In this document: positions 4,022-16,546 of the stretch, in pieces
Layout: each line of letters starts with the position of its first letter
Position numbering within the stretch: the stretch's first letter is position 1
NCBI GenBank assembly: GCA_013823625.1
Contig: PNMM01000001.1
Coordinates: 806,001-870,000 of the forward strand
DNA length: 64,000 nucleotides
Reading direction: 5' to 3'
From: Microbacterium sp.
Lineage (GTDB): Bacteria > Actinomycetota > Actinomycetes > Actinomycetales > Microbacteriaceae
Notes under the pieces: model-generated
Seen by the model: only the letters and a program-made list of their open reading frames with translations
Databases searched by the model: none
Told to the model about the DNA's origin: nothing
Made by a program: the position numbers and the translations under genes

Positions 4022-4050
4022 TTGCCATATTCGAACGTATGTTCGATCAT
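4022..4050 (+). promoter_or_regulatory. Predicted SOS promoter of imuA'-imuB
   Basis: -35 TTGCCA (4022-4027), 17-bp spacer, -10 GATCAT (4045-4050). The LexA palindrome fills the spacer. Seven bases after the -10 comes ATG 4057, so transcription would start on or next to the start codon, giving a leaderless mRNA. The -10 is a weak match, as is common for inducible actinobacterial promoters. Confidence 0.55.
4031..4046. promoter_or_regulatory. LexA binding site (SOS box)
   Basis: TCGAACGTATGTTCGA is a perfect match to the actinobacterial/Gram-positive SOS box pattern TCGAAC-N4-GTTCGA, with perfect symmetry of the half-sites. It lies 10 bp before imuA', a gene known to be LexA-controlled in mycobacteria. 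No second copy of this pattern was seen upstream of dnaE2 or dinB in the window. Confidence 0.92.
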
Positions 4051-4056
4051 GGAGAG

Positions 4057-4788
4057 ATGCCCGCCCTCGCGCTCTCTTCTCTTGATGACCCTGCCGTCGT
4101 CGACTCTCGCAGCGCGCGCATCGAGGCGGTTGACACCGTTCAGGCGCTCCAGGCCCGCATTGACGCCCTTCAGCGCACGCGGCTCGACTCGCGGCTCATG
4201 CCAACGCACGAAGCACTTGCTGACCTGTTGCCCGACGGCGGGCTGCGCGAGGGTGCGACCTACGCGCTGAGCCCCTCGAGCGCCCTCGTCATGGCGCTGC
4301 TCGCCGGCCCCTCGCAGGCGGGGTCGTGGTGCGGCGTTGTCGGCATGCCCGAGTTCGGCGTCGAGGCCGCCGAGGCCATGGGCATCGATCTCGATCGGCT
4401 CGTGCTGGTTCCGCACCCCGGCGATGCGTGGCTCACGGTCACGGCTGCGATTGCGGATGCGCTCGGCATCGTCGTCGTGCGGCCCGGGCGAGCGGCGAGC
4501 GATGGCGCCATCTCCAAACTTGCCGGGCGGTTGCGCGAACGCGGCTCGACCCTGCTCGTACTCGGGCCCTGGCCCCAGGCCGAAGCCATGATCAGCCTGA
4601 CCGAGAGCCACTGGTCGGGCCTCGGCGACGGCCACGGCTACTTGAGCGAGCGCGAGGTGACGATCACCGTGAGCTCGAAGCGCGGCGGGCGGCCCCGCAG
4701 CGGGCGTGTGATGATGCCCGATGCCGAGTTGGGCATCCGTCGTCTCGATCGCGATGCTGCCGTCACTGCTCTGAGGCGGGTCGGCTGA
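4057..4788 (+). CDS. imuA': ImuA'-like mutasome accessory protein (degenerate RecA fold)
   Basis: In mycobacteria ImuA' works with ImuB and DnaE2 in error-prone translesion synthesis after DNA damage. This 243-residue protein has a RecA-like layout: an N-terminal coiled segment, then 'GGLREGATYAL' where RecA has the entry to its Walker A loop. The GK(T/S) signature is absent ('SPSSALVM'), so ATP binding is doubtful. Identity rests on this fold pattern, the SOS box and the downstream imuB and dnaE2. ATG 4057 is chosen over longer in-frame starts (GTG/ATG from 4009) because those would place the SOS box inside the gene. The stop overlaps the imuB start by 1 nt (TGATG). Confidence 0.83.
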   Translation: MPALALSSLDDPAVVDSRSARIEAVDTVQALQARIDALQRTRLDSRLMPTHEALADLLPDGGLREGATYALSPSSALVMALLAGPSQAGSWCGVVGMPEFGVEAAEAMGIDLDRLVLVPHPGDAWLTVTAAIADALGIVVVRPGRAASDGAISKLAGRLRERGSTLLVLGPWPQAEAMISLTESHWSGLGDGHGYLSEREVTITVSSKRGGRPRSGRVMMPDAELGIRRLDRDAAVTALRRVG

Positions 4789-6353
4789 TGCAGCGCACGC
4801 TCGTGCTGTGGGTGCCCGATTGGCCCGTCATCGCGGCCGTGCGCGAGGGGCTCGTGGCGCAGAGCGCGCCCATCGCCGTTATGGCGGCGAACCGCGTGAT
4901 GGCGTGCTCCCCCACGGCTCGCGCCGAAGGCGTGCGGGCGGGTCAGCGGCGGCGCGAAGCACAGTCGCTGTGTACCTCGCTCGTTGTCGTGCCCTTTGAC
5001 GACGGCCGCGACCACCGGCTGTTTGCGCCGATCATCGACATCGTCGAAGGGCTCGTCGCGGGTGTGCAGGTCGTGCGGCCCGGGCTACTGGCGCTCGCGG
5101 CGCGCGGGCCCGCGCGGTACTACGGCGGCGAGAAAGCCGCCGCGCTCGCGTTGCGCGGTGCCGTTCGGGCAGACGACGTGGTCGACACGCGCATCGGCAT
5201 TGCCGACGGGCCGTTTGCGGCCGAACTTGCGGCGCGCACGGTGGCCGCCGAGCAGTCGGTGCAGATTGTGCCGAGCGGAGCATCCGGCCCCTTTCTCGCC
5301 CCGTTCTCGGTGACGACGCTCGGCGACCCCGACCTCGCGACGCTGCTCGGGCGGCTCGGCGTGCGCACGCTCGGCGACTTTGCCGCGCTACCCGCCGAGG
5401 CCGTGCGCGACCGCTTCGGCGCGGCCGGGGCCCACCGGCACGCGCTCGCGGGGGCTGCTGATGCCACTCCGCTCGTGCCGCGCACTCCCCCACCCGACCT
5501 GGAACGCGTTCTGGAGCTTGAGCCACCGCTCGACCGGGTCGACCAGCTCGCCTTCGCCGTACGGCAACTCGCTGACGAGCTCGTCGAGGCCCTCACGAGT
5601 CGGCTGCTCGTGGCGACGGCCATTCGCATCGGGTTTCGCGACGAGCACGGCACCGAGACCGAGCGCGCCTGGCTACACCCGCGGTCGTTTCGCGCGAGCG
5701 AGATCGTCGACCGCGTGCGCTGGCAGCTCAGCGGCGAGACGCGCACGGCGGGCACCCGTGCCGATGCCGATCGCGGGCCGGGGCTGCGTTCGGCCATCAC
5801 GCGCGTGCGCATCGTGCCCGAGAGTGTGGACGACCTCGCGCACCACGAGCCCGGGCTGTGGGGCGGCCCTCCCGATGAGCGCGTGCACCACGCCCTCTCG
5901 CGCGTGCAAAGCTTGCTCGGCCACGACGCCGTGCTCACCGCCCAACGCGCGGGCGGCCGCACGCTCGCCGAGCGCACGATGCTCGTGCCCTGGGGTGACC
6001 GTGCCGTCATCACGCGGCCCGTCGAACGACCCTGGCCCGGAGCCTTGCCACAACCCGCGCCCGCGACCGTATTCCCGTCGCGGCATGCGGTGACGGTCGT
6101 CGATGCGCAGGGTGCCGCCGTCGGCATCGATGACCGGATGCGGCTCTCCGCGGCCCCCGCGGGGTTTGCTCCCGCCGCGGGCGGGACAACTCGGCCCGTG
6201 ACCTCGTGGGCGGGGCCGTGGCCGCTCGATGAGCAGTGGTGGAGCATTCGTCGGCGGCGACTGCATCGGCTGCAAGTGGTCGACGCGGCGGGTGTGGCGT
6301 GGTTGCTCGTACTCGAGGGTGCGTCGTGGTGGGCCGAGGCGCGCTATGACTGA
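4788..6353 (+). CDS. imuB: ImuB, catalytically inactive Y-family polymerase-like protein
   Basis: ImuB is a mutasome hub that binds the sliding clamp and recruits DnaE2. The 521-residue protein has the Y-family palm/finger region (about 1-240), a helix-hairpin region near 'LGRLGVRTLGDFAALP' and a little-finger-like region. The acidic residues are lost: where DinB has 'LDMDAFF' this has 'WVPDWPV', and where DinB has 'SIDEAF' this has 'GLLALA'. This loss is typical of ImuB. 'HEPGLWG' (353-359) lies where mycobacterial ImuB carries its clamp-binding motif (QLPLWG). The start overlaps the imuA' stop, so the two are translationally coupled. The gene ends 19 bp before the convergent yoeB. Confidence 0.9.
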   Translation: MQRTLVLWVPDWPVIAAVREGLVAQSAPIAVMAANRVMACSPTARAEGVRAGQRRREAQSLCTSLVVVPFDDGRDHRLFAPIIDIVEGLVAGVQVVRPGLLALAARGPARYYGGEKAAALALRGAVRADDVVDTRIGIADGPFAAELAARTVAAEQSVQIVPSGASGPFLAPFSVTTLGDPDLATLLGRLGVRTLGDFAALPAEAVRDRFGAAGAHRHALAGAADATPLVPRTPPPDLERVLELEPPLDRVDQLAFAVRQLADELVEALTSRLLVATAIRIGFRDEHGTETERAWLHPRSFRASEIVDRVRWQLSGETRTAGTRADADRGPGLRSAITRVRIVPESVDDLAHHEPGLWGGPPDERVHHALSRVQSLLGHDAVLTAQRAGGRTLAERTMLVPWGDRAVITRPVERPWPGALPQPAPATVFPSRHAVTVVDAQGAAVGIDDRMRLSAAPAGFAPAAGGTTRPVTSWAGPWPLDEQWWSIRRRRLHRLQVVDAAGVAWLLVLEGASWWAEARYD

Positions 6354-6372
6354 GTGCGGTCGGCGTGCTGGC

Positions 6373-6648
6373 TCAGGGTGCGTAGTGATAGCGGCACTGC
6401 GCGATGCGAATTTCGTCGCCCACGAGCTTGTAGGCGAGCCGATGCTCATCGGTGATGCGGCGCGACCAGTAGCCCTGAAAGCCGTGCTTGAGTGCCTCGG
6501 GCTTGCCCAGCCCGGCCTGGGGAGAAGACTCAGCGCCGTTGCGGGCGATGTCTTTCACCAGCGCGTTGATGCGCTGCACGATCTTGCGGTCGTTCGCCTG
6601 CCAGTAGAGGTAGTCCTCCCATGCCGCGCGTGACCAGACGAGCGTCAC
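6373..6648 (-). CDS. yoeB: YoeB/Txe family toxin (ribosome-dependent mRNA interferase)
   Basis: A 91-residue RelE-superfamily toxin that cleaves mRNA at the ribosomal A site when freed from its antitoxin. The YoeB hallmarks are present: 'GKPEALKH' (catalytic Glu51), 'WSRRIT' and 'EHRLAY' (Arg64, Arg70), and the C-terminal 'CRYHY' (His88, Tyr89). All catalytic positions are intact, so the toxin looks functional. The start overlaps the yefM stop by 4 nt (ATGA), the usual toxin-antitoxin coupling. It is antisense to, and sits between, imuB and dnaE2. Confidence 0.94.
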   Translation of the reverse strand: MTLVWSRAAWEDYLYWQANDRKIVQRINALVKDIARNGAESSPQAGLGKPEALKHGFQGYWSRRITDEHRLAYKLVGDEIRIAQCRYHYAP

Positions 6649-6896
6649 TCGCTCAGCTCGTGGGGCTCACCTCGGCCCGCCTCGAGCTCGTCAATCGCGC
6701 CGAGCAGGCGGCGGGCGTTCTCGGGGCTGCGCAGCAGGTAGGCGGTCTCTTTCAACGACTCGTAGTCGTCGAGGGCCACCATGACCACGGGGTCTTTTCC
6801 GGCGCGCGTGATGACGATCTCTTCGCGGTCGTCGAGCACCGCGTCGAGAGCAGCGGCGTAGTTCGCGCGCGATTCCGAGTAGCTCATGGTCTTCAT
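6645..6896 (-). CDS. yefM: YefM/Phd family antitoxin
   Basis: An 83-residue antitoxin with the Phd/YefM N-terminal DNA-binding domain ('MKTMSYSESRANYAAALD', then 'EEIVITRAG' and 'VVMVALDDYESL') and an acidic C-terminal tail that would wrap YoeB. The start at 6896 has a strong ribosome site (GGAGGT, 5 nt away). A longer reading would run over the operator and is rejected. It represses its own promoter together with YoeB in characterised homologues; a matching operator lies 11 bp upstream. Confidence 0.93.
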   Translation of the reverse strand: MKTMSYSESRANYAAALDAVLDDREEIVITRAGKDPVVMVALDDYESLKETAYLLRSPENARRLLGAIDELEAGRGEPHELSE

Positions 6897-6906
6897 TGTG
6901 ACCTCC

Positions 6907-6922
6907 GTACAGAAAATTGTAC
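6907..6922. promoter_or_regulatory. Putative YefM-YoeB operator overlapping the -10
   Basis: GTACA (6907-6911), 6-nt centre, TGTAC (6918-6922): a perfect inverted repeat in an A+T-rich patch. The GTAC cores are 12 bp apart centre to centre, the spacing described for the TGTACA cores of the E. coli yefM operator. Read on the minus strand it contains TACAAT (6916-6921), a good -10 for yefM, so occupancy would block transcription. It also lies 49 bp before the divergent dnaE2 start. Confidence 0.72.
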
Positions 6923-6970
6923 GCGAGTTCTCCCCAGGGCGTGCGAGCAACTCACGCGAGGGCGGCGCTG

Positions 6971-9900
6971 ATGGCCGGCTGGCACAACCCGCCGATTCCG
7001 TGGAGCGAGTTCGAGCGCAGCCTGCGCGAGGGCAAACGGCCGGGGTCGAGCCCGCCGCTCGGCGGTGATGCGGGCGACTCTCCGGCGTGGACGCAGAAGC
7101 GTGCGCCCTATCGCGCCGCCGGAATCGCACAGCCCGATCCCGCGACGGTCGTGCCCTACGCCGAGCTGCACGCGCACTCCAGCTTCAGCTTTCTCGACGG
7201 CGCCTCGAGCCCCGAAGAGCTGCTCGAAGAGGCCGCGCGGCTGGGGCTCGTTGGCCTCGCGATGACCGACCACGACGGTTTCTACGGCGTCGTGCGCATG
7301 GCCGAAGCGGCCGAGCCCTATGGCATCACCACGGTGTTCGGCGCCGAACTTTCGCTCGACCTCACGGGCCCGCAGCAGGGCGTGCCCGACCCCGAGGGCA
7401 CGCACCTGCTCGTGCTCGCGCGCGGGCAGGCCGGCTACCACCGGCTCGCCGCGGCCATTACCGGCGCGCAACTCGCGGGCGCCGAGAAGGGCCGCCCGGT
7501 CTACGACCTTGACGTGCTCGCCGAGCACGCGGGCCGCGGCGGCGACGCGACGAGCGGCGACCACTGGATGATCCTCACGGGGTGCCGCAAGGGCGCCGTG
7601 CGGTCGGCGCTCGAGGGGCGCGACACCAGGCGGGCGAGCAACGATGGTGCGGCCTCGGATGGCGTCGCTCGCGCGCGGCCGACGCGCGCCCACATCGCCG
7701 CGGCGGGCGCCGAGCTCGACGCGCTCGTCGACCGGTTTGGAGCATCCAATGTCACCGTCGAGCTCTTCGATCACGGCCGCCCGCTCGACACCGTGCACAA
7801 CGATGTGCTCGCGGCTCTTGCCGCCGAGCGCGGGCTTCCGATCGTCGCGACGGGCGCCGTGCACTACGCGGCTCCGGCGCGGTACCCGCTCGCCACCGCG
7901 TTCGCCGCCCTGCGCGGGCGCCGCAGTCTCGACGACATGCAGGGTTGGCTGCCGGCCGCCGGAACGTCGCACTTGCGTAGCGGCGCCGAGATGCAGCGGT
8001 TGTTCGCGCGCTACCCCGGGGCCGTGGCGCACAGCGTTGAGCTCGCGACCGAGCTCGGCTTCTCACTGAGGCAGGCCAAACCGAACCTGCCGAAGCAGGA
8101 GGTTCCAGAAGGCCACACGCCCATGAGCTGGCTGCGCGAACTGGTGTGGGCGGCTGTGCCGCGCAAGTACCCCGAGGCGAGTGACGCCGACCGTGCCCGC
8201 ATCGCGCGCGAGCTCGACGTCATCGAGATGAAGGACTTTCCCGGCTACTTCCTGATCGTGCACGACATCGTGCAGTACGCCCGCGGGCGCGGCATTCTCT
8301 GTCAGGGCCGCGGCTCGGCCGCGAACTCGGCCGTGTGCTACTTGCTCGACATCACGGCGGTCGACTCGATCGGCTACAAGCTGCCCTTCGAGCGCTTTCT
8401 TTCCTCCCTCCGCGACGAAGAGCCCGACATCGACGTCGACTTCGACTCTGATCGGCGCGAAGAGGTCATTCAGTACGTGTTCGAGAAGTACGGCCGCCGC
8501 AACGCCGCGCAGGTCGCCAACGTGATCTCGTACCGGCCCAAGAACGCCGTGCGCGACATGGCGCGGGCGCTCGGCTACTCCACGGGTCAGCAAGACGCGT
8601 GGAGCAAGCAGGTCGAGCGCTGGGGCGCCGTGCTCTCGAGCGACGACCACGACATTCCCGAGCCCGTCGTCGACCTCGCCCAGCAAGTGCTGACCTACCC
8701 TCGGCACCTCGGCATCCACTCGGGCGGAATGGTGCTCACCGACCGGCCCGTCGGCGAGATCGTTCCGATCGAGCACGCGCGCATGGAAAACCGCACGGTG
8801 CTGCAGTGGGACAAAGACGACTGCGCGTGGATGGGCCTCGTCAAGTTCGACCTGCTCGGTCTTGGCATGCTCGCCGCGCTGCAGTACTCGTTCGACCTCA
8901 TCGACGAGCATCTCGGCGAACGGTGGGAACTCGCGACGCTGCCAAAAGAAGAACAAGCGACCTACGACATGCTGTGCCGCGCCGACTCGATCGGCGTCTT
9001 TCAGGTCGAGAGTCGCGCGCAAATGGGGCTGCTGCCGCGCCTGCAGCCGCGCAAGTTCTACGACCTCGTCGTGCAGATCGCGCTCGTGCGACCCGGGCCG
9101 ATTCAGGGCGGCGCGGTGCACCCCTTTGTGCGCCGCAAGCTCGGTCACGAGCCGATCACCTACGACCACCCCAAGCTCGTCGAACCGCTCGAACGCACGC
9201 TCGGCATCCCGATCTTTCAAGAGCAACTCATGCAGGTCGCGATGGCGGTCGGCGGCTGCACGGGAGACGACGCTGACTTGCTGCGCCGCGCGATGGGCAG
9301 CAAGCGCGGCCTCGAGCGCATCGAGTCACTGCGCGAGACCCTTTATGCCGGCATGGCGGGCAACGGCATCACGGGCCAACTCGCCGACGAGATCTACGGC
9401 CGCATTCAGGCCTTCGCCAACTTCGGCTTCGCCGAAAGCCACTCCATCAGCTTCGCGCTACTCGTCTACGCGAGTTCATACATCAAGCTGCACTACCCCG
9501 GCATCTTCCTCGCCTCGCTGCTGCGCGCCCAGCCGATGGGCTTCTACTCGCCGTCGACGCTCACGGGCGACGCCGAACGGCACGGAGTCGAGGTGCGCAC
9601 CCCGTGCATCCTTCGGTCGGGTGTCGAGGCGGGGCTCGAGCGCATCGATCTCGTCGTTGCGTCAGCGTACGAGCCCGTGGCGACGGATGCCCGACGCGCG
9701 TCGCCCACGGGGCTCGAGCAGTGCATCCACCGCCAGCAGCTGCCCGTTCCCGAGTTCGAGCCTGCGTCGACGAATGGCGACCTCGCCGACTGCGCGCTGC
9801 ACCGCCGCGACGGTGAGCTCGCGGTGCGGTTGGGGCTTGCCGAGGTCACGGGGATCGGTCGGCCGACGGCCCAGCGCATCGTCGCCGAGCGTGAGCGGGG

Positions 9901-10522
9901 TGGCCCCTACCGCGACCTCACCGAGCTCGTCTACCGCACCGGGCTCACGGCCGCCCAGGTTGAGGCGCTCGCGACCGCCGGCGCTTTCGACGTGCTCGGC
10001 ATGTCGCGGCGCGAGGCGCTGTGGGCGGCGGGTGCCGCGGCGCAGGCTCGGCCCGAGTATCTGCCCGGAGTGGTGACGGCCGTGCAACCGCCGCTGTTCA
10101 CCGACCTCGACGCGCACGAACTCATGGTTGCCAACCTCGTGTCGACGGGTATCGCGCCCGGTGACCACCCCGTGCGTTTCGTGCGCGGGCTGTTGCGCGA
10201 GCGCGGCGTGCTGAGTGCGCGCGAGCTGCGCAGCGCCGAGCCGGGGCGCCGCGTCGAGGTGGCGGGTGTCGTCACCCACCGCCAGCGACCCGCGACCGCG
10301 AGTGGCATCACGTTTTTGAACCTCGAAGACGAGACAGGCCTCGTTAATGTGATCTGCTCGGTGGGGCTGTGGGGCCGCTACCGTCGCACGGTGCGCGAGA
10401 GTCGCGCGCTCATCATCCGCGGCACGCTCGAGCGCTCACCCGAGGGTGTCGTCAACATCGTCGCCGACCGGGTCGAGTCGTTGCCCTTGCGCGTCACCAT
10501 GCCGAGCCGCGACTTTCGGTAG
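6971..10522 (+). CDS. dnaE2: DnaE2, error-prone DNA polymerase III alpha subunit
   Basis: A C-family polymerase that extends past lesions with ImuA' and ImuB. The 1183-residue protein has an N-terminal PHP domain ('ELHAHSSFSFLDGAS', then 'TDHDGFYG'), the palm with 'GRGSAANSAVCY' and 'PDIDVDFD' (485-492, the catalytic aspartates), the fingers, a helix-hairpin-helix region and a C-terminal OB fold ('VEVAGVVTHRQRP', 'FLNLEDETG'). These features, the length and the imuB context distinguish DnaE2 from replicative DnaE1. ATG 6971 is chosen; the upstream TTG 6917 would fall in the YefM operator. No SOS box was seen directly upstream, so induction may depend on read-through from imuB or on another promoter. 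Confidence 0.93.
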   Translation: MAGWHNPPIPWSEFERSLREGKRPGSSPPLGGDAGDSPAWTQKRAPYRAAGIAQPDPATVVPYAELHAHSSFSFLDGASSPEELLEEAARLGLVGLAMTDHDGFYGVVRMAEAAEPYGITTVFGAELSLDLTGPQQGVPDPEGTHLLVLARGQAGYHRLAAAITGAQLAGAEKGRPVYDLDVLAEHAGRGGDATSGDHWMILTGCRKGAVRSALEGRDTRRASNDGAASDGVARARPTRAHIAAAGAELDALVDRFGASNVTVELFDHGRPLDTVHNDVLAALAAERGLPIVATGAVHYAAPARYPLATAFAALRGRRSLDDMQGWLPAAGTSHLRSGAEMQRLFARYPGAVAHSVELATELGFSLRQAKPNLPKQEVPEGHTPMSWLRELVWAAVPRKYPEASDADRARIARELDVIEMKDFPGYFLIVHDIVQYARGRGILCQGRGSAANSAVCYLLDITAVDSIGYKLPFERFLSSLRDEEPDIDVDFDSDRREEVIQYVFEKYGRRNAAQVANVISYRPKNAVRDMARALGYSTGQQDAWSKQVERWGAVLSSDDHDIPEPVVDLAQQVLTYPRHLGIHSGGMVLTDRPVGEIVPIEHARMENRTVLQWDKDDCAWMGLVKFDLLGLGMLAALQYSFDLIDEHLGERWELATLPKEEQATYDMLCRADSIGVFQVESRAQMGLLPRLQPRKFYDLVVQIALVRPGPIQGGAVHPFVRRKLGHEPITYDHPKLVEPLERTLGIPIFQEQLMQVAMAVGGCTGDDADLLRRAMGSKRGLERIESLRETLYAGMAGNGITGQLADEIYGRIQAFANFGFAESHSISFALLVYASSYIKLHYPGIFLASLLRAQPMGFYSPSTLTGDAERHGVEVRTPCILRSGVEAGLERIDLVVASAYEPVATDARRASPTGLEQCIHRQQLPVPEFEPASTNGDLADCALHRRDGELAVRLGLAEVTGIGRPTAQRIVAERERGGPYRDLTELVYRTGLTAAQVEALATAGAFDVLGMSRREALWAAGAAAQARPEYLPGVVTAVQPPLFTDLDAHELMVANLVSTGIAPGDHPVRFVRGLLRERGVLSARELRSAEPGRRVEVAGVVTHRQRPATASGITFLNLEDETGLVNVICSVGLWGRYRRTVRESRALIIRGTLERSPEGVVNIVADRVESLPLRVTMPSRDFR

Positions 10523-12399: not shown

Positions 12400-13493
12400 G
12401 TGTTGGCTCCTCTCGCGGCAACCGCCCACGCGGCGACCTCAACTCCCTCACGCTCGACGATGAGGTCGTCGACGAGGTTCACGGCATTGCAGACGTGGTT
12501 GGGCACGACGCGCAGCACGGTGCCGAGCGGCGGCACGATAGCGTCCGCCGAGAACGTGATGGTGGCGTGGTGCTCTGAGAGTGCGGTGATGCGGGCATCC
12601 GGATGGTCGAGCAACCGGCCGTAGCCACTCGCGTAGGCGGCACGATCGGCGCCCAGAATCTTGCTGCCGGCATCCACGATCGCCACGTTCTCGCGCCGAC
12701 TCACAACCGTGGCGCGGGCCGTCAGGGCAATCGTTGCGGGCTCGATCGTTCCGAGCTCCCACTGCTGCGCGTCACCGAAGAGGTACACCCCGGGCCGTAA
12801 CTCGGTGAGCACGCCGCCGTCGGCCGCGCGGGCACTCGGGGTTGACCCGCCGCTCACGACCGGGCACGGGATGCCCGCCGCAACGAGCGCGTCACGCGCC
12901 GTGGCGAGGGCCGCGGCTTCGTCGCCCGCCGCGGGTGTTGCCGCGCCCGAGCCGTACGAGTGCCCCGGAAACGTGAAGACGCCGTCGACGAGCAACCCGG
13001 CCTCGAGCGCAGTAGCCGCGACCTCGGCAGCACGCTCGGGTGAGATGCCGCTGCGGTGGTGGCCGCTATCGACCTCGACCGCGATGGCGAGGGGCGGCGC
13101 GGAGTCGGAACCCGCGTGCACAGCAGCGGCGAGCATCCGTACCCCGTCAACCGAGTCGGCGCCGACGCGAAGCCGCACACGGCCGGCAAGACCTCGCAGT
13201 CGAGCCGCGCGAAGACCGACGGCCCACAAGGGGTAGGCGATGAAGATGTCGTCGACTCCCGCGTCGGCAAACACCTCGGCCTCGCCGACCGTGGCCACCG
13301 TGAGGCCGACGGCGCCGTGCGCGAGCTGGCGCGCTGCAATCTCGGGAGTCTTGTGGGTCTTCGCGTGGGGGCGCAGCGCCACACCAAGCGTGGCGGCGTG
13401 AGACGCCATCGCAGCAAGGTTCGACTCGAGCTGGTGCTCGTCGACGACGAGATAGGGGGTGTCGCGCACTCCCCCATCATCGCGCGTCGTCAC
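12396..13493 (-). CDS. PLP-dependent D-threonine aldolase / D-serine dehydratase-like enzyme
   Basis: A 365-residue fold-type III PLP enzyme. The alanine-racemase-like barrel comes first, with 'LRPHAKTHKTPEIA' (about 41-54) carrying the Schiff-base lysine. 'EVDSGHHRSG' and 'FPGHSYG' are in the middle. The C-terminal domain has 'PNHVCNAVNL', whose His and Cys form the metal site in D-serine dehydratase and D-threonine aldolase. It should act on a D-hydroxy amino acid. It overlaps both neighbours by 4 nt in the dinB-helicase-PLP-CPBP operon. A role tied to DNA repair is not evident. Confidence 0.83.
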   Translation of the reverse strand: MTTRDDGGVRDTPYLVVDEHQLESNLAAMASHAATLGVALRPHAKTHKTPEIAARQLAHGAVGLTVATVGEAEVFADAGVDDIFIAYPLWAVGLRAARLRGLAGRVRLRVGADSVDGVRMLAAAVHAGSDSAPPLAIAVEVDSGHHRSGISPERAAEVAATALEAGLLVDGVFTFPGHSYGSGAATPAAGDEAAALATARDALVAAGIPCPVVSGGSTPSARAADGGVLTELRPGVYLFGDAQQWELGTIEPATIALTARATVVSRRENVAIVDAGSKILGADRAAYASGYGRLLDHPDARITALSEHHATITFSADAIVPPLGTVLRVVPNHVCNAVNLVDDLIVEREGVEVAAWAVAARGANT

Positions 13494-15271
13494 GCTCCGC
13501 CGTTCGCCATCTGCTTGCGCAGAAGCTCGATGCGCAATTGCAGCTGCGCGACGGTCGCCTGGCCGACGGCGGGCCCGCCGCAGAGGCGACGCAACTCGGC
13601 GTGAATGTGGCCGTGCGGTTGACCCGTGAGCTTCGCGCGCAGACCGACAAGGCTGTTCAGCAGGGTGCGCTGCTCTTTGAGCGAGCGGTACATGGGCTGC
13701 ACCGCCGGTGCGGCACCGGCGGGCCGTTCCGCGGCGCGACGCTGTTGGCGCTGGTGGCGCGCCTTGAGCACGTCGCGCACTTGGTCAGGTTCGAGAATGC
13801 CGGGGAGGCCGAGGAAGTCGAGCTCTTCGAGGCTGCCGACGGGCGACAGCGCGCCAAACTCATCGCCGTCGAAGAGCACCTTCTCGAAGATCGCGCTCGA
13901 CTCCAGAGCGAGATAGGTGTACTCGGCGAGCTCACTTTCGCTGGCCTTTTCCTCACGCTCGGCCTCGCTGAGCAGTGCGTCGTCGAGCAACTCGTCGCTC
14001 GCGCGATCGAGAGCGTGGTCACGTTCGCGCTCGAGTTCGCTCGCGAGGCGCTGAATCGCGGGCACGCTCGGAATGAAGATCGACGCCGTCTCGCCGCGAC
14101 GCCGCGCGCGCACGAAACGGCCGATCGCCTGGGCGAAGAACAGTGGGGTGGATGCACTCGTCGCGTAGACCCCCACCGCGAGCCGCGGCACGTCGACGCC
14201 CTCTGAGACCATGCGCACGGCGACGAGCCAGCGCGACTCCGACTCGGCAAAGGTGGCGATGCGGTCGGATGCGCCCGCTTCGTCGCTGAGCACGACGGTC
14301 GGCTCTTCGCCGGTGATGGAGGCGAGCAAGCCGGCGTACGCGCGCGCCGTGGCTTGGTCGGTCGCGATGACGAGGCCCCCCGCATCCGGAACCTGATGGC
14401 GCACTTCGGTGAGACGGGTGTCGGCCGCGCGCAACACGCCGCTCATCCACTCGCCGCCCGGGTCAAGAGCGGTGCGCCAGGCCTGTGCCGTGATGTCGGC
14501 GGTGTCAGCTTGGCCGAGCACGGCCTCCATTTCGTCGCCCGACGTCGTGCGCCAGCGCATGCGCCCCGCGTATGACAAGAACAACACCGGGCGCACGACG
14601 CCGTCGGTCAGGGCGCGGCCGTAGCCGTATTGGTAGTCGGTGTGCGAGATGCGAATGCCCTCGGTATCGGGCACGTAGGTCACGAACGGAATCGGCGCCG
14701 TGTCACTGCGAAACGGCGTGCCCGTGAGAGACAACCGGCGCGTCGCCCCTTCGTAGGCCTCGCGTATCGCTTCGCCCCAACTGAGCGCGTCGCCACCGTG
14801 GTGCACTTCGTCGAGAATGACGAGCGTCGAGGCCTGCTCGACGAGCACGCGGTGCACGAATGGCTGCGCGGCAACTTGTGCGTACGTCACGGCAACACCG
14901 TGGAACGCGCGACCTACCATGCGCCCCGCATTGCGAAAGGCGGGGTCGAGACGGATGCCCACGCGATGCGCCGCGTCGGCCCACTGCCTCTTCAAGTGCT
15001 CGGTGGGTGCCACGACGATGACGCGTTCGACTGTGCGACGCGCGAGCAGCTCAGCGGCGAGCCTCAGCGCGAATGTCGTCTTGCCAGCGCCCGGCGTCGC
15101 GGCCGCAAGAAAGTCACGCGGCTCGGTCTCGAAGTAACGGTCAAGCGCTTCGGCTTGCCAGGCGCGCAAACGATCGGCTGTGCCGCGGGCAGCGCGCTCG
15201 GGGTACGAGGGTGAGAGGTTCTCCGCGGCAAAGGTGCCCACGTGCGGGGCGCGGCGGTAGGTCGGACTCAC
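13490..15271 (-). CDS. SF2 DEAD/DEAH-box helicase (RadD/type-III-res-like)
   Basis: A 593-residue SF2 helicase. Walker A is 'ATPGAGKTT' (about 58-66), Walker B is 'LDEVHH' (about 151-156), motif III is 'LTGTPFRSD' and motif VI is 'QAIGRFVRARR' (about 375-385). These sit in two RecA-like domains, with a charged C-terminal tail of about 170 residues. No nuclease domain is visible. It is separated from dinB by only 12 nt and overlaps the next gene by 4 nt, so it is almost surely cotranscribed with the polymerase. DNA-repair unwinding is a reasonable inference. Confidence 0.87.
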   Translation of the reverse strand: MSPTYRRAPHVGTFAAENLSPSYPERAARGTADRLRAWQAEALDRYFETEPRDFLAAATPGAGKTTFALRLAAELLARRTVERVIVVAPTEHLKRQWADAAHRVGIRLDPAFRNAGRMVGRAFHGVAVTYAQVAAQPFVHRVLVEQASTLVILDEVHHGGDALSWGEAIREAYEGATRRLSLTGTPFRSDTAPIPFVTYVPDTEGIRISHTDYQYGYGRALTDGVVRPVLFLSYAGRMRWRTTSGDEMEAVLGQADTADITAQAWRTALDPGGEWMSGVLRAADTRLTEVRHQVPDAGGLVIATDQATARAYAGLLASITGEEPTVVLSDEAGASDRIATFAESESRWLVAVRMVSEGVDVPRLAVGVYATSASTPLFFAQAIGRFVRARRRGETASIFIPSVPAIQRLASELERERDHALDRASDELLDDALLSEAEREEKASESELAEYTYLALESSAIFEKVLFDGDEFGALSPVGSLEELDFLGLPGILEPDQVRDVLKARHQRQQRRAAERPAGAAPAVQPMYRSLKEQRTLLNSLVGLRAKLTGQPHGHIHAELRRLCGGPAVGQATVAQLQLRIELLRKQMANGGA

Positions 15272-15283
15272 GAGACCTCGATG

Positions 15284-16546
15284 CTAGTCGAGTCGACCGA
15301 CGCCGCCCTCCGGAACACTCCCTCGTCGCGGAGGAGCGCCCTTCATCAGCGACGCCCGCTGCACGGTGCCTGTGCCAAAGCGCTCGGCGAGTGCATCGAT
15401 GGCACCTTCCGCTTCTCGCCACGGCTCATCGTCGTCCCAGAGCCCGTGAGCAACCGTGCCCGTCGGCAGCAGGGCGGATGCCCGCACTCCGATGAGCCGC
15501 AGCCCACGCCCCACCACCGGTGACGCCGCATAGAGTGCCCGCGCTTCGGTCGCAATGCGCTGCGCCACATCCGTTGGTTCGGGCAGAGTCTGTGATCGAG
15601 TGATGGTCTCGAAGTCGCCGAAGCGCAGCTTTATCGAGAGCGTGCGCGCGACCCATCCCCCGGCGCGCAGCCGCTCGGCGACGCGCTCGGCGAGGCGGAG
15701 CAGCTCGCGGTCGATCACCGCCGGCTCGGCAACGTCGCGCTCGAAGGTGACCTCATGGCCGATGGTCTTCTCCGCACGCTCGGGTGAGACAGACCGCGGG
15801 TCGCGACCGTGGGCGAGCGCGTGCAGGTGCCCCGCCGCGGCCGGGCCGAGTGCGCGGGTGAGGGCGTCGAGCGGAGCATCCGCCACATCGCCGATGGTGC
15901 GGAGTCCTAGTCGCTCGAGGCGCTGTGCCGACGCCGCGCCGACTCCCCACAGGGCGGTGATGGGTTGCGGGTACAAGAACGCGAGCGTCTCGGCGGCGGG
16001 AACGATGAGCAGCCCGTCGGGTTTCGCGCGGCCCGAGGCGAGCTTGGCGACGAACTTCGTCGCTGCAGCGCCGACCGAGGCCACGAGTCCGGTCTCGGCG
16101 TGGATACGCTCCCGCAATGCCGTGCCGATCGCAAACGGCGGCCCAAACAGCGCCGTAGCGCCCGTGACATCGAGAAAGGCCTCATCGATGCTCAAGGGCT
16201 CAACGAGCGGCGTGACGTCGCCGAGGATCTGCATGACCGCGCGAGAGGCGGCTTGGTAGCGGTCGTAGTGCGGCTCGAGCACGATCGCGTGGGGGCAGCG
16301 CCGCAGAGCAATGGCCATGGGCATGGCCGAGTTGACGCCGTAGCGGCGGGCCTCGTACGTCGCCGCCGTCACCACCGAGCGGGCGCCACGGTGGCCGACG
16401 ATCACGGGCTTGCCGCGCAGCTCAGGCCGGTCGAGCAGCTCGACCGAGGCAAAGAAGGCATCCATGTCGAGGTGCAGGATGCGCGCGCTCAGGTCATCGG
16501 TCGGGGCCTCAGTGACCTGCCGACCGCTGCCGTCTTGCTTGCTCAT
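15284..16546 (-). CDS. dinB: DNA polymerase IV (DinB)
   Basis: A Y-family translesion polymerase of 420 residues. The catalytic acids are intact: 'HLDMDAFFASVE' near residues 25-36 and 'SIDEAFLD' near 120. The thumb has the helix-hairpin-helix 'LWGVGAASAQRLERLGLRTIGD', followed by the little finger with 'KTIGHEVTFE'. Unlike the nearby ImuB, it should be an active polymerase. It leads an operon with a helicase, a PLP enzyme and a CPBP protease. I saw no SOS box in the 88 bp upstream and no clear C-terminal clamp-binding motif. Confidence 0.94.
   Translation of the reverse strand: MSKQDGSGRQVTEAPTDDLSARILHLDMDAFFASVELLDRPELRGKPVIVGHRGARSVVTAATYEARRYGVNSAMPMAIALRRCPHAIVLEPHYDRYQAASRAVMQILGDVTPLVEPLSIDEAFLDVTGATALFGPPFAIGTALRERIHAETGLVASVGAAATKFVAKLASGRAKPDGLLIVPAAETLAFLYPQPITALWGVGAASAQRLERLGLRTIGDVADAPLDALTRALGPAAAGHLHALAHGRDPRSVSPERAEKTIGHEVTFERDVAEPAVIDRELLRLAERVAERLRAGGWVARTLSIKLRFGDFETITRSQTLPEPTDVAQRIATEARALYAASPVVGRGLRLIGVRASALLPTGTVAHGLWDDDEPWREAEGAIDALAERFGTGTVQRASLMKGAPPRRGSVPEGGVGRLD

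Follow-up and report, generated by a model that had tools for sequence, protein, structure and literature searches.

The window analyzed here is a 64,000-nucleotide stretch of Microbacterium sp. DNA (contig PNMM01000001.1). In it, an intact yefM-yoeB toxin-antitoxin (TA) pair is located on the opposite strand between imuB and dnaE2 (6373-6896), within the rightward (+) imuA'-imuB-dnaE2 locus of the SOS response to DNA damage. The spacing of the three rightward genes and their single LexA box suggest that they form one operon. An opposite-strand gene inside an operon is one mark of the noncontiguous operon, and the gene order of the window shows it. We think it probable that the pair is a mobile, autoregulated addiction module, tolerated as an antisense guest in the spacer of the SOS operon and making that operon noncontiguous.

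The gene identities are supported by family models (Table 1). Three family matches under one LexA box identify an ImuA'-ImuB-DnaE2 mutasome. Both TA proteins exceed the cut-offs of the models for the YefM-YoeB type II system (PF06769, TIGR02116 and PF02604); with the narrower YefM equivalog NF008499 the window YefM scores 91.8 bits, below the cut-off of 121. The window YoeB is the sole YoeB match in its genome. The two TA genes overlap by 4 nt, 19 nt separate the stop of imuB from that of yoeB, and a gap of 74 nt lies between the starts of yefM (6896) and dnaE2 (6971). ATG 6971 is the likely dnaE2 start, with the N-terminus GWHNPP common to relatives, and the C-terminus of ImuB is 93-98% identical across the seven nearest genus members. 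The original prediction had placed yoeB-yefM on the opposite strand between the rightward genes, and coordinates and family matches bear this out; its remark that yefM transcription runs away from dnaE2 agrees with the geometry. A chance reading is excluded by another genome, G013, in which these genes occupy the corresponding position.

Table 1. Features of the yefM-yoeB insertion and its surroundings in the window, in order of position
Feature	Position	Strand	Remarks
LexA (SOS) box, TCGAACGTATGTTCGA	4031..4046	+	precedes imuA'; sole perfect match in the 64-kb window
imuA'	4057..4788	+	NF058630, 186 bits (cut-off 65); start uncertain, ATG 4049 or 4057
imuB	4788..6353	+	PF00817, 47.6 bits (cut-off 23.2)
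yoeB toxin gene	6373..6648	-	PF06769, 115 bits (cut-off 27); TIGR02116, 97.1 bits (cut-off 51.8)
yefM antitoxin gene	6645..6896	-	PF02604, 82 bits (cut-off 29.8)
Upstream block of yefM, 43 nt	6897..6939	-	42/43 identical in G013; contains the ribosome-binding site and -10-like TACAAT (6916-6921), both assigned by eye, and the operator
Predicted YefM operator, CGTACAATTTTCTGTACG on the - strand	6906..6923		two GTAC cores, 12 bp apart
Spacer remnant adjoining dnaE2, 31 nt	6940..6970	+	equal length in G013, sequence diverged
dnaE2	6971..10522	+	NF004225, 1408 bits (cut-off 939)

The junction was compared in 26 genomes of the genus, where G000 is the genome of the window and G013 is a metagenome-assembled genome (contig LNFD01000353). 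A dnaE2 match is present in 24 of them; because that of G017 is without the gene start, 23 junctions can be read. imuB is followed directly by dnaE2, uninterrupted, in 21 of the 23. yefM-yoeB is found between them only in G000 and G013, at the same site and in the same orientation. The empty spacers measure 13-87 nt in the 19 (of 21) fetched at length, and the nearest relatives of both carriers by dnaE2 have an empty junction. In G019, the closest to the window judged by dnaE2 (protein identity 98%), the spacer measures 27 nt and shows no sign of the pair. Some YoeB is present in 9 of the 26 genomes. The other copies (eight, including a second copy in G013) are 47-52% identical to the window YoeB, and none is at the junction. 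Among 80 loci from genome contigs, read up to 5 kb on each side, the only further dnaE2-linked YoeB was that on the known G013 contig. Compared by eye, the matches listed contain no YoeB within 30 kb of dnaE2 in any other genome; the nearest, in G078, is about 31 kb away. A short contig of G019 (C20, L035) carries a second dnaE2-like match, 70% identical to that of the window, which may be a contaminant or a second copy.

Divergence between the two carriers bears on the age of the pair. YefM is identical between G000 and G013, and the YoeB proteins share 88-89% identity. Synonymous divergence (dS) is 0.33 for yefM, 0.48 for yoeB, 0.37 for dnaE2 (first 793 codons) and 0.61 for imuB (last 200 codons). 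Such short genes give widely scattered values, among which the pair does not stand out as clearly younger than its flanks. Recent transfer between the two carrier species appears unlikely, since the dS of the pair is within the range of the flanking genes. The ratio of nonsynonymous to synonymous divergence is 0 for yefM, 0.086 for yoeB, 0.081 for dnaE2 and 0.065 for the last 200 codons of imuB. yefM differs by 16 synonymous and no amino-acid changes, for which a simple binomial gives a neutral probability of about 1e-10. Both yefM and yoeB are under strong purifying selection.

The position of the insertion is also shared. Its right-hand edge is 31 nt from dnaE2 in both carriers, after a 43-nt block with one mismatch. 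One insertion followed by later losses fits best, and identity of site together with dS suggests that the origin was probably single. In the dnaE2 and imuB trees, G000 groups with G019 and G013 with G008. rpoB is missing in G013 and G019, so the recA region served as species marker; there G000 groups with G019, and G013 with G014, then G008. Odd base composition was flagged in that region for G000 and G019. The imuB-dnaE2 junction of G014 was not found.

The region upstream of yefM contains the predicted operator. Its cores, CGTACA and TGTACG, are each one base off TGTACA, and there is no exact TGTACA near yefM. Two GTAC cores at 12-bp spacing precede yefM in 78 of 89 loci; stretches located another 300 nt upstream, taken as controls, have them in 1 of 88, and shuffled sequences in 0 of 89. 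The 89 loci include the window locus and count the G013 locus twice (L010, L036), and L095, the remaining one of 90, is without a usable yefM. In yefM-yoeB and axe-txe, paired cores 12 bp apart lie over the promoter (PMC7730913). The window operator follows this rule for yefM promoters. It is located 47 bp before dnaE2, inside the gap between the two genes.

The pair was originally predicted to be intact with all YoeB catalytic residues, and the family matches and the aligned key residues agree. E51, R70, H88 and Y89, which align with the catalytic residues E46, R65, H83 and Y84 of E. coli YoeB, are all kept. A 5-residue insert is found directly before the catalytic GKPE motif in the window YoeB (6376-6648). 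It is present in 1 of 89 aligned YoeBs, and that of G013 is without it. Neither this insert nor the operator figured in the original prediction. The structure model has a mean pLDDT of 87.6 and 61 for residues 41-50, which contain the insert; it is confident apart from the insert loop and the last residue. At that confidence the model cannot tell whether the insert impairs the toxin, whose activity and neutralization by YefM are putative. The closest outside YoeBs in a scan of genome contigs are 72% identical (Prauserella, then Actinocrispum, Arthrobacter and others), and large Rhodococcus plasmids carry relatives at 70% identity. Judged from these matches, the cassette is of a widespread actinobacterial kind that is partly plasmid-borne.

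LexA-like sites with at most two mismatches number 11 in the window versus 5.1 expected. None of them lies in 6353-6971, so none is at yefM or just before dnaE2. Sites at 7344 and 9189, with 2 mismatches each, are inside dnaE2 and were not accepted as real. Across the loci with a recognized imuA', a LexA box with at most one mismatch is near this gene in 102 of 113. A consensus scan of 6200-7050 for promoters and terminators gave no match, and such a scan means little in this GC-rich group. It is uninformative for dnaE2, because actinobacterial promoters escape it, that of yefM included. Given that the imuB-dnaE2 interval yielded neither a LexA box nor a promoter or terminator, SOS induction of dnaE2 is likely to occur by read-through, and its damage-induced expression probably needs transcription across the antisense pair. 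The lack of a terminator-like site would be at most permissive for one transcript spanning the pair. The options for the window are read-through, an undetected promoter or lost SOS control of dnaE2. SOS read-through had been proposed to oppose TA transcription; the antisense geometry holds, and the read-through itself is plausible, given the LexA box before imuA' and no terminator-like site.

An open reading frame (ORF) of 116 codons runs antisense to yefM-yoeB (6621-6971, +). Its TGA overlaps the dnaE2 ATG, and its open length is the same in G013. It could permit translational coupling to dnaE2 or be due to chance. We make no claim for it, because ORFs of varied length also stop at the dnaE2 ATG in relatives and antisense frames of high GC content are often open.

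The imuB-dnaE2 spacer was then surveyed across the family. We read 120 junctions, 21 from the genus and 99 from others; one more was dropped at a contig end. Ninety-nine are at most 100 nt long, 7 measure 101-250 nt and 14 are longer. YoeB is found in 2 of the 120, both of them among the 14 longer ones, and elsewhere in the family the same spacer holds three other kinds of antisense insert. A GNAT acetyltransferase gene is present in G244, G196 and G142 (L141, L149 and L153; one genus). A uracil-DNA glycosylase (UDG) superfamily gene is present in G182, G121, G041, G275 and G093 (L175, L181, L213, L228 and L205), and a DUF2087 gene in G154 (L197). Further genes are a co-directional transporter-like gene in G156, an additional co-directional dehydrogenase-like gene in G182 and a further antisense glycosyltransferase-like gene in G093. 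No clear gene was seen in the junctions of G113 (283 nt) and G042 (266 nt). Identities come from Pfam for one GNAT, two UDG and one DUF2087 protein, and from inspection by eye for the remaining inserts.

A LexA box belonging to dnaE2 itself is found at -22/-23 in 7 of the 120 junctions: 6 of the 12 over 500 nt versus 1 of the 108 others (Fisher p 1.7e-6, uncorrected for kinship, with all seven from two genera, g17 and g69). Carriers of TA, GNAT and DUF2087 inserts have dnaE2 without such a box. The GNAT junctions pose the same puzzle as the TA case, with an antisense insert and no LexA box at dnaE2. In the UDG-carrying junctions the box is at about -23 and is perhaps shared with the divergent genes there. 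The spacer accepts antisense inserts repeatedly in this family, and the separated dnaE2 has an adjoining LexA box in some lineages and not in others.

These observations suggest the following scheme. A YefM-YoeB module would have entered the short spacer of the LexA-controlled operon, in antisense, in an ancestor of two related species. It would have been kept by purifying selection in these two lineages, and lost or replaced by the empty allele elsewhere. At rest, YefM, alone or with YoeB, would bind the operator at 6906-6923 and so repress the promoter of the pair. Upon DNA damage LexA would leave 4031-4046, and transcription from imuA' would probably continue into dnaE2, passing antisense through yoeB-yefM, with mutual hindrance between this read-through and transcription of the TA pair. 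The pair itself most likely serves its own maintenance; effects on damage physiology, if any, would be incidental.

Several points weigh against this scheme. About 600 nt of mostly untranslated antisense RNA should attract Rho termination, weakening read-through. The consensus scan also failed to detect any yefM promoter, and dnaE2 could have an undetected one as well. Read-through is not the sole solution for such loci, as dnaE2 carries a LexA box of its own in two long-insert genera. The fewest changes on the trees are two gains, compared with one gain plus two or three losses (hand-counted); the probable single origin is argued from site identity and dS, not from tree parsimony. Finally, a damage-induced TA system that controls growth exists in Caulobacter HigAB (PMC9578287).

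The insertion may instead have severed dnaE2 from SOS control, leaving it to a weak promoter of its own in 6897-6970 that is tuned by YefM-YoeB at 6906-6923. The predicted operator 47 bp before dnaE2 is suitably placed for this, and the LexA box at -22/-23 in two long-insert genera indicates that separation can matter. Against it, the two carriers have diverged over the 31 nt adjoining dnaE2, and the scan of 6200-7050, a weak test here, gave no promoter-like site. We regard this alternative as unlikely.

The adaptive coupling envisaged by the original prediction is a still more doubtful proposal. Here SOS read-through would cut yefM-yoeB RNA, the unstable antitoxin would fall first, and freed YoeB would slow growth while the mutasome acts. 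The antisense geometry, the perfect LexA box only at imuA' and the purifying selection on both TA genes are consistent with it. A phage defense gene coupled antisense to its operon is a precedent (PMC11087260), SOS-regulated TA systems such as the growth regulator HigAB exist (PMC9578287), and E. coli authors suggest that mRNA cleavage may help under DNA damage (PMC2814082). However, the pair is missing in the nearest relatives read, yefM is without a LexA-like site, and antisense repression should reduce toxin as well as antitoxin. In E. coli, yafNO deletion is without effect on SOS induction, adaptive mutation and fluoroquinolone survival despite a direct link to an SOS promoter (PMC7167474). 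The prior for coupling is further lowered because the same paper describes the operon-inserted E. coli TA pairs dinB-yafNOP and relA-mazEFG as functionally unlinked to their neighbors. As it stands, a link from mutagenesis to growth arrest is hypothetical.

It is very unlikely that operator-bound YefM-YoeB forms a road-block 47 bp before dnaE2 and, with the yefM promoter firing against the incoming polymerase, gates SOS read-through. If true, the state of the TA pair, set by YefM proteolysis, would let the growth state control the error-prone polymerase independently of LexA. Equally improbable, and already disfavored, is a recent neutral insertion now decaying, with which the patchy distribution and the unique insert in the window YoeB would fit; the lack of amino-acid change in YefM, the dS within the flanking range and the key YoeB positions kept argue against it. 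The original prediction had held that uninterrupted spacers in relatives, together with no transcript change, would point to such an insertion. The spacer half of the comparison came out as supposed in 21 of 23 junctions, but the insertion appears neither recent nor neutral.

Closely related species without the pair offer a natural test of whether a TA pair in a damage-induced operon alters damage physiology. Elsewhere in the window, 3-6 kb past dnaE2, genes for a helicase-like protein (ResIII/DEAD) and a Y-family polymerase of the DinB type are found at 13490-16546 (-).

TA pairs inside imuB-dnaE2 were found in none of the titles or abstract openings of the papers listed by literature searches, from which we do not claim absence from print; the available portions of PMC9578287 and PMC8072749 do not mention one. 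The window resembles the E. coli dinB-yafN-yafO-yafP operon. In both, a type II TA pair with a RelE-homologous toxin is located between two cistrons of an SOS polymerase operon, the operon is uninterrupted in non-carriers, and the pair has its own autoregulated promoter, a predicted one in the window (PMC2814082, PMC7167474 for E. coli). E. coli strains without yafNOP have an undisturbed dinB operon (PMC7167474). Unlike the window pair, yafNO is co-directional and is induced by damage from the dinB promoter (PMC2814082); the window pair is antisense and would be opposed, in an imuA'-imuB-dnaE2 operon. Being on the opposite strand and without a LexA-like site, it was not assigned to the SOS-induced TA systems of the dinB-yafNO type.

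As a predicted autoregulated module, the pair is similar to yefM-yoeB and axe-txe, whose promoters are likewise overlain by two palindromic cores at 12-bp spacing (PMC7730913). It differs in having CGTACA and TGTACG instead of perfect TGTACA, and a toxin with a 5-residue insert. In the noncontiguous menE-menC-MW1733-ytkD-MW1731 operon of S. aureus an opposite-strand gene is likewise interspersed; co-transcription across the antisense gene was measured there, whereas the window case is known from sequence (PMC7154746). The staphylococcal prophage tha/ith locus has a defense RNase and its inhibitor on opposite strands of one state-switching noncontiguous operon (PMC11087260). There the inhibitor alone is antisense, whereas in the window toxin and antitoxin are antisense together. 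Mutual interference is described for noncontiguous operons (PMC7154746, PMC11087260). The window locus combines two arrangements that are individually known, the TA pair in an SOS polymerase operon and the noncontiguous operon.

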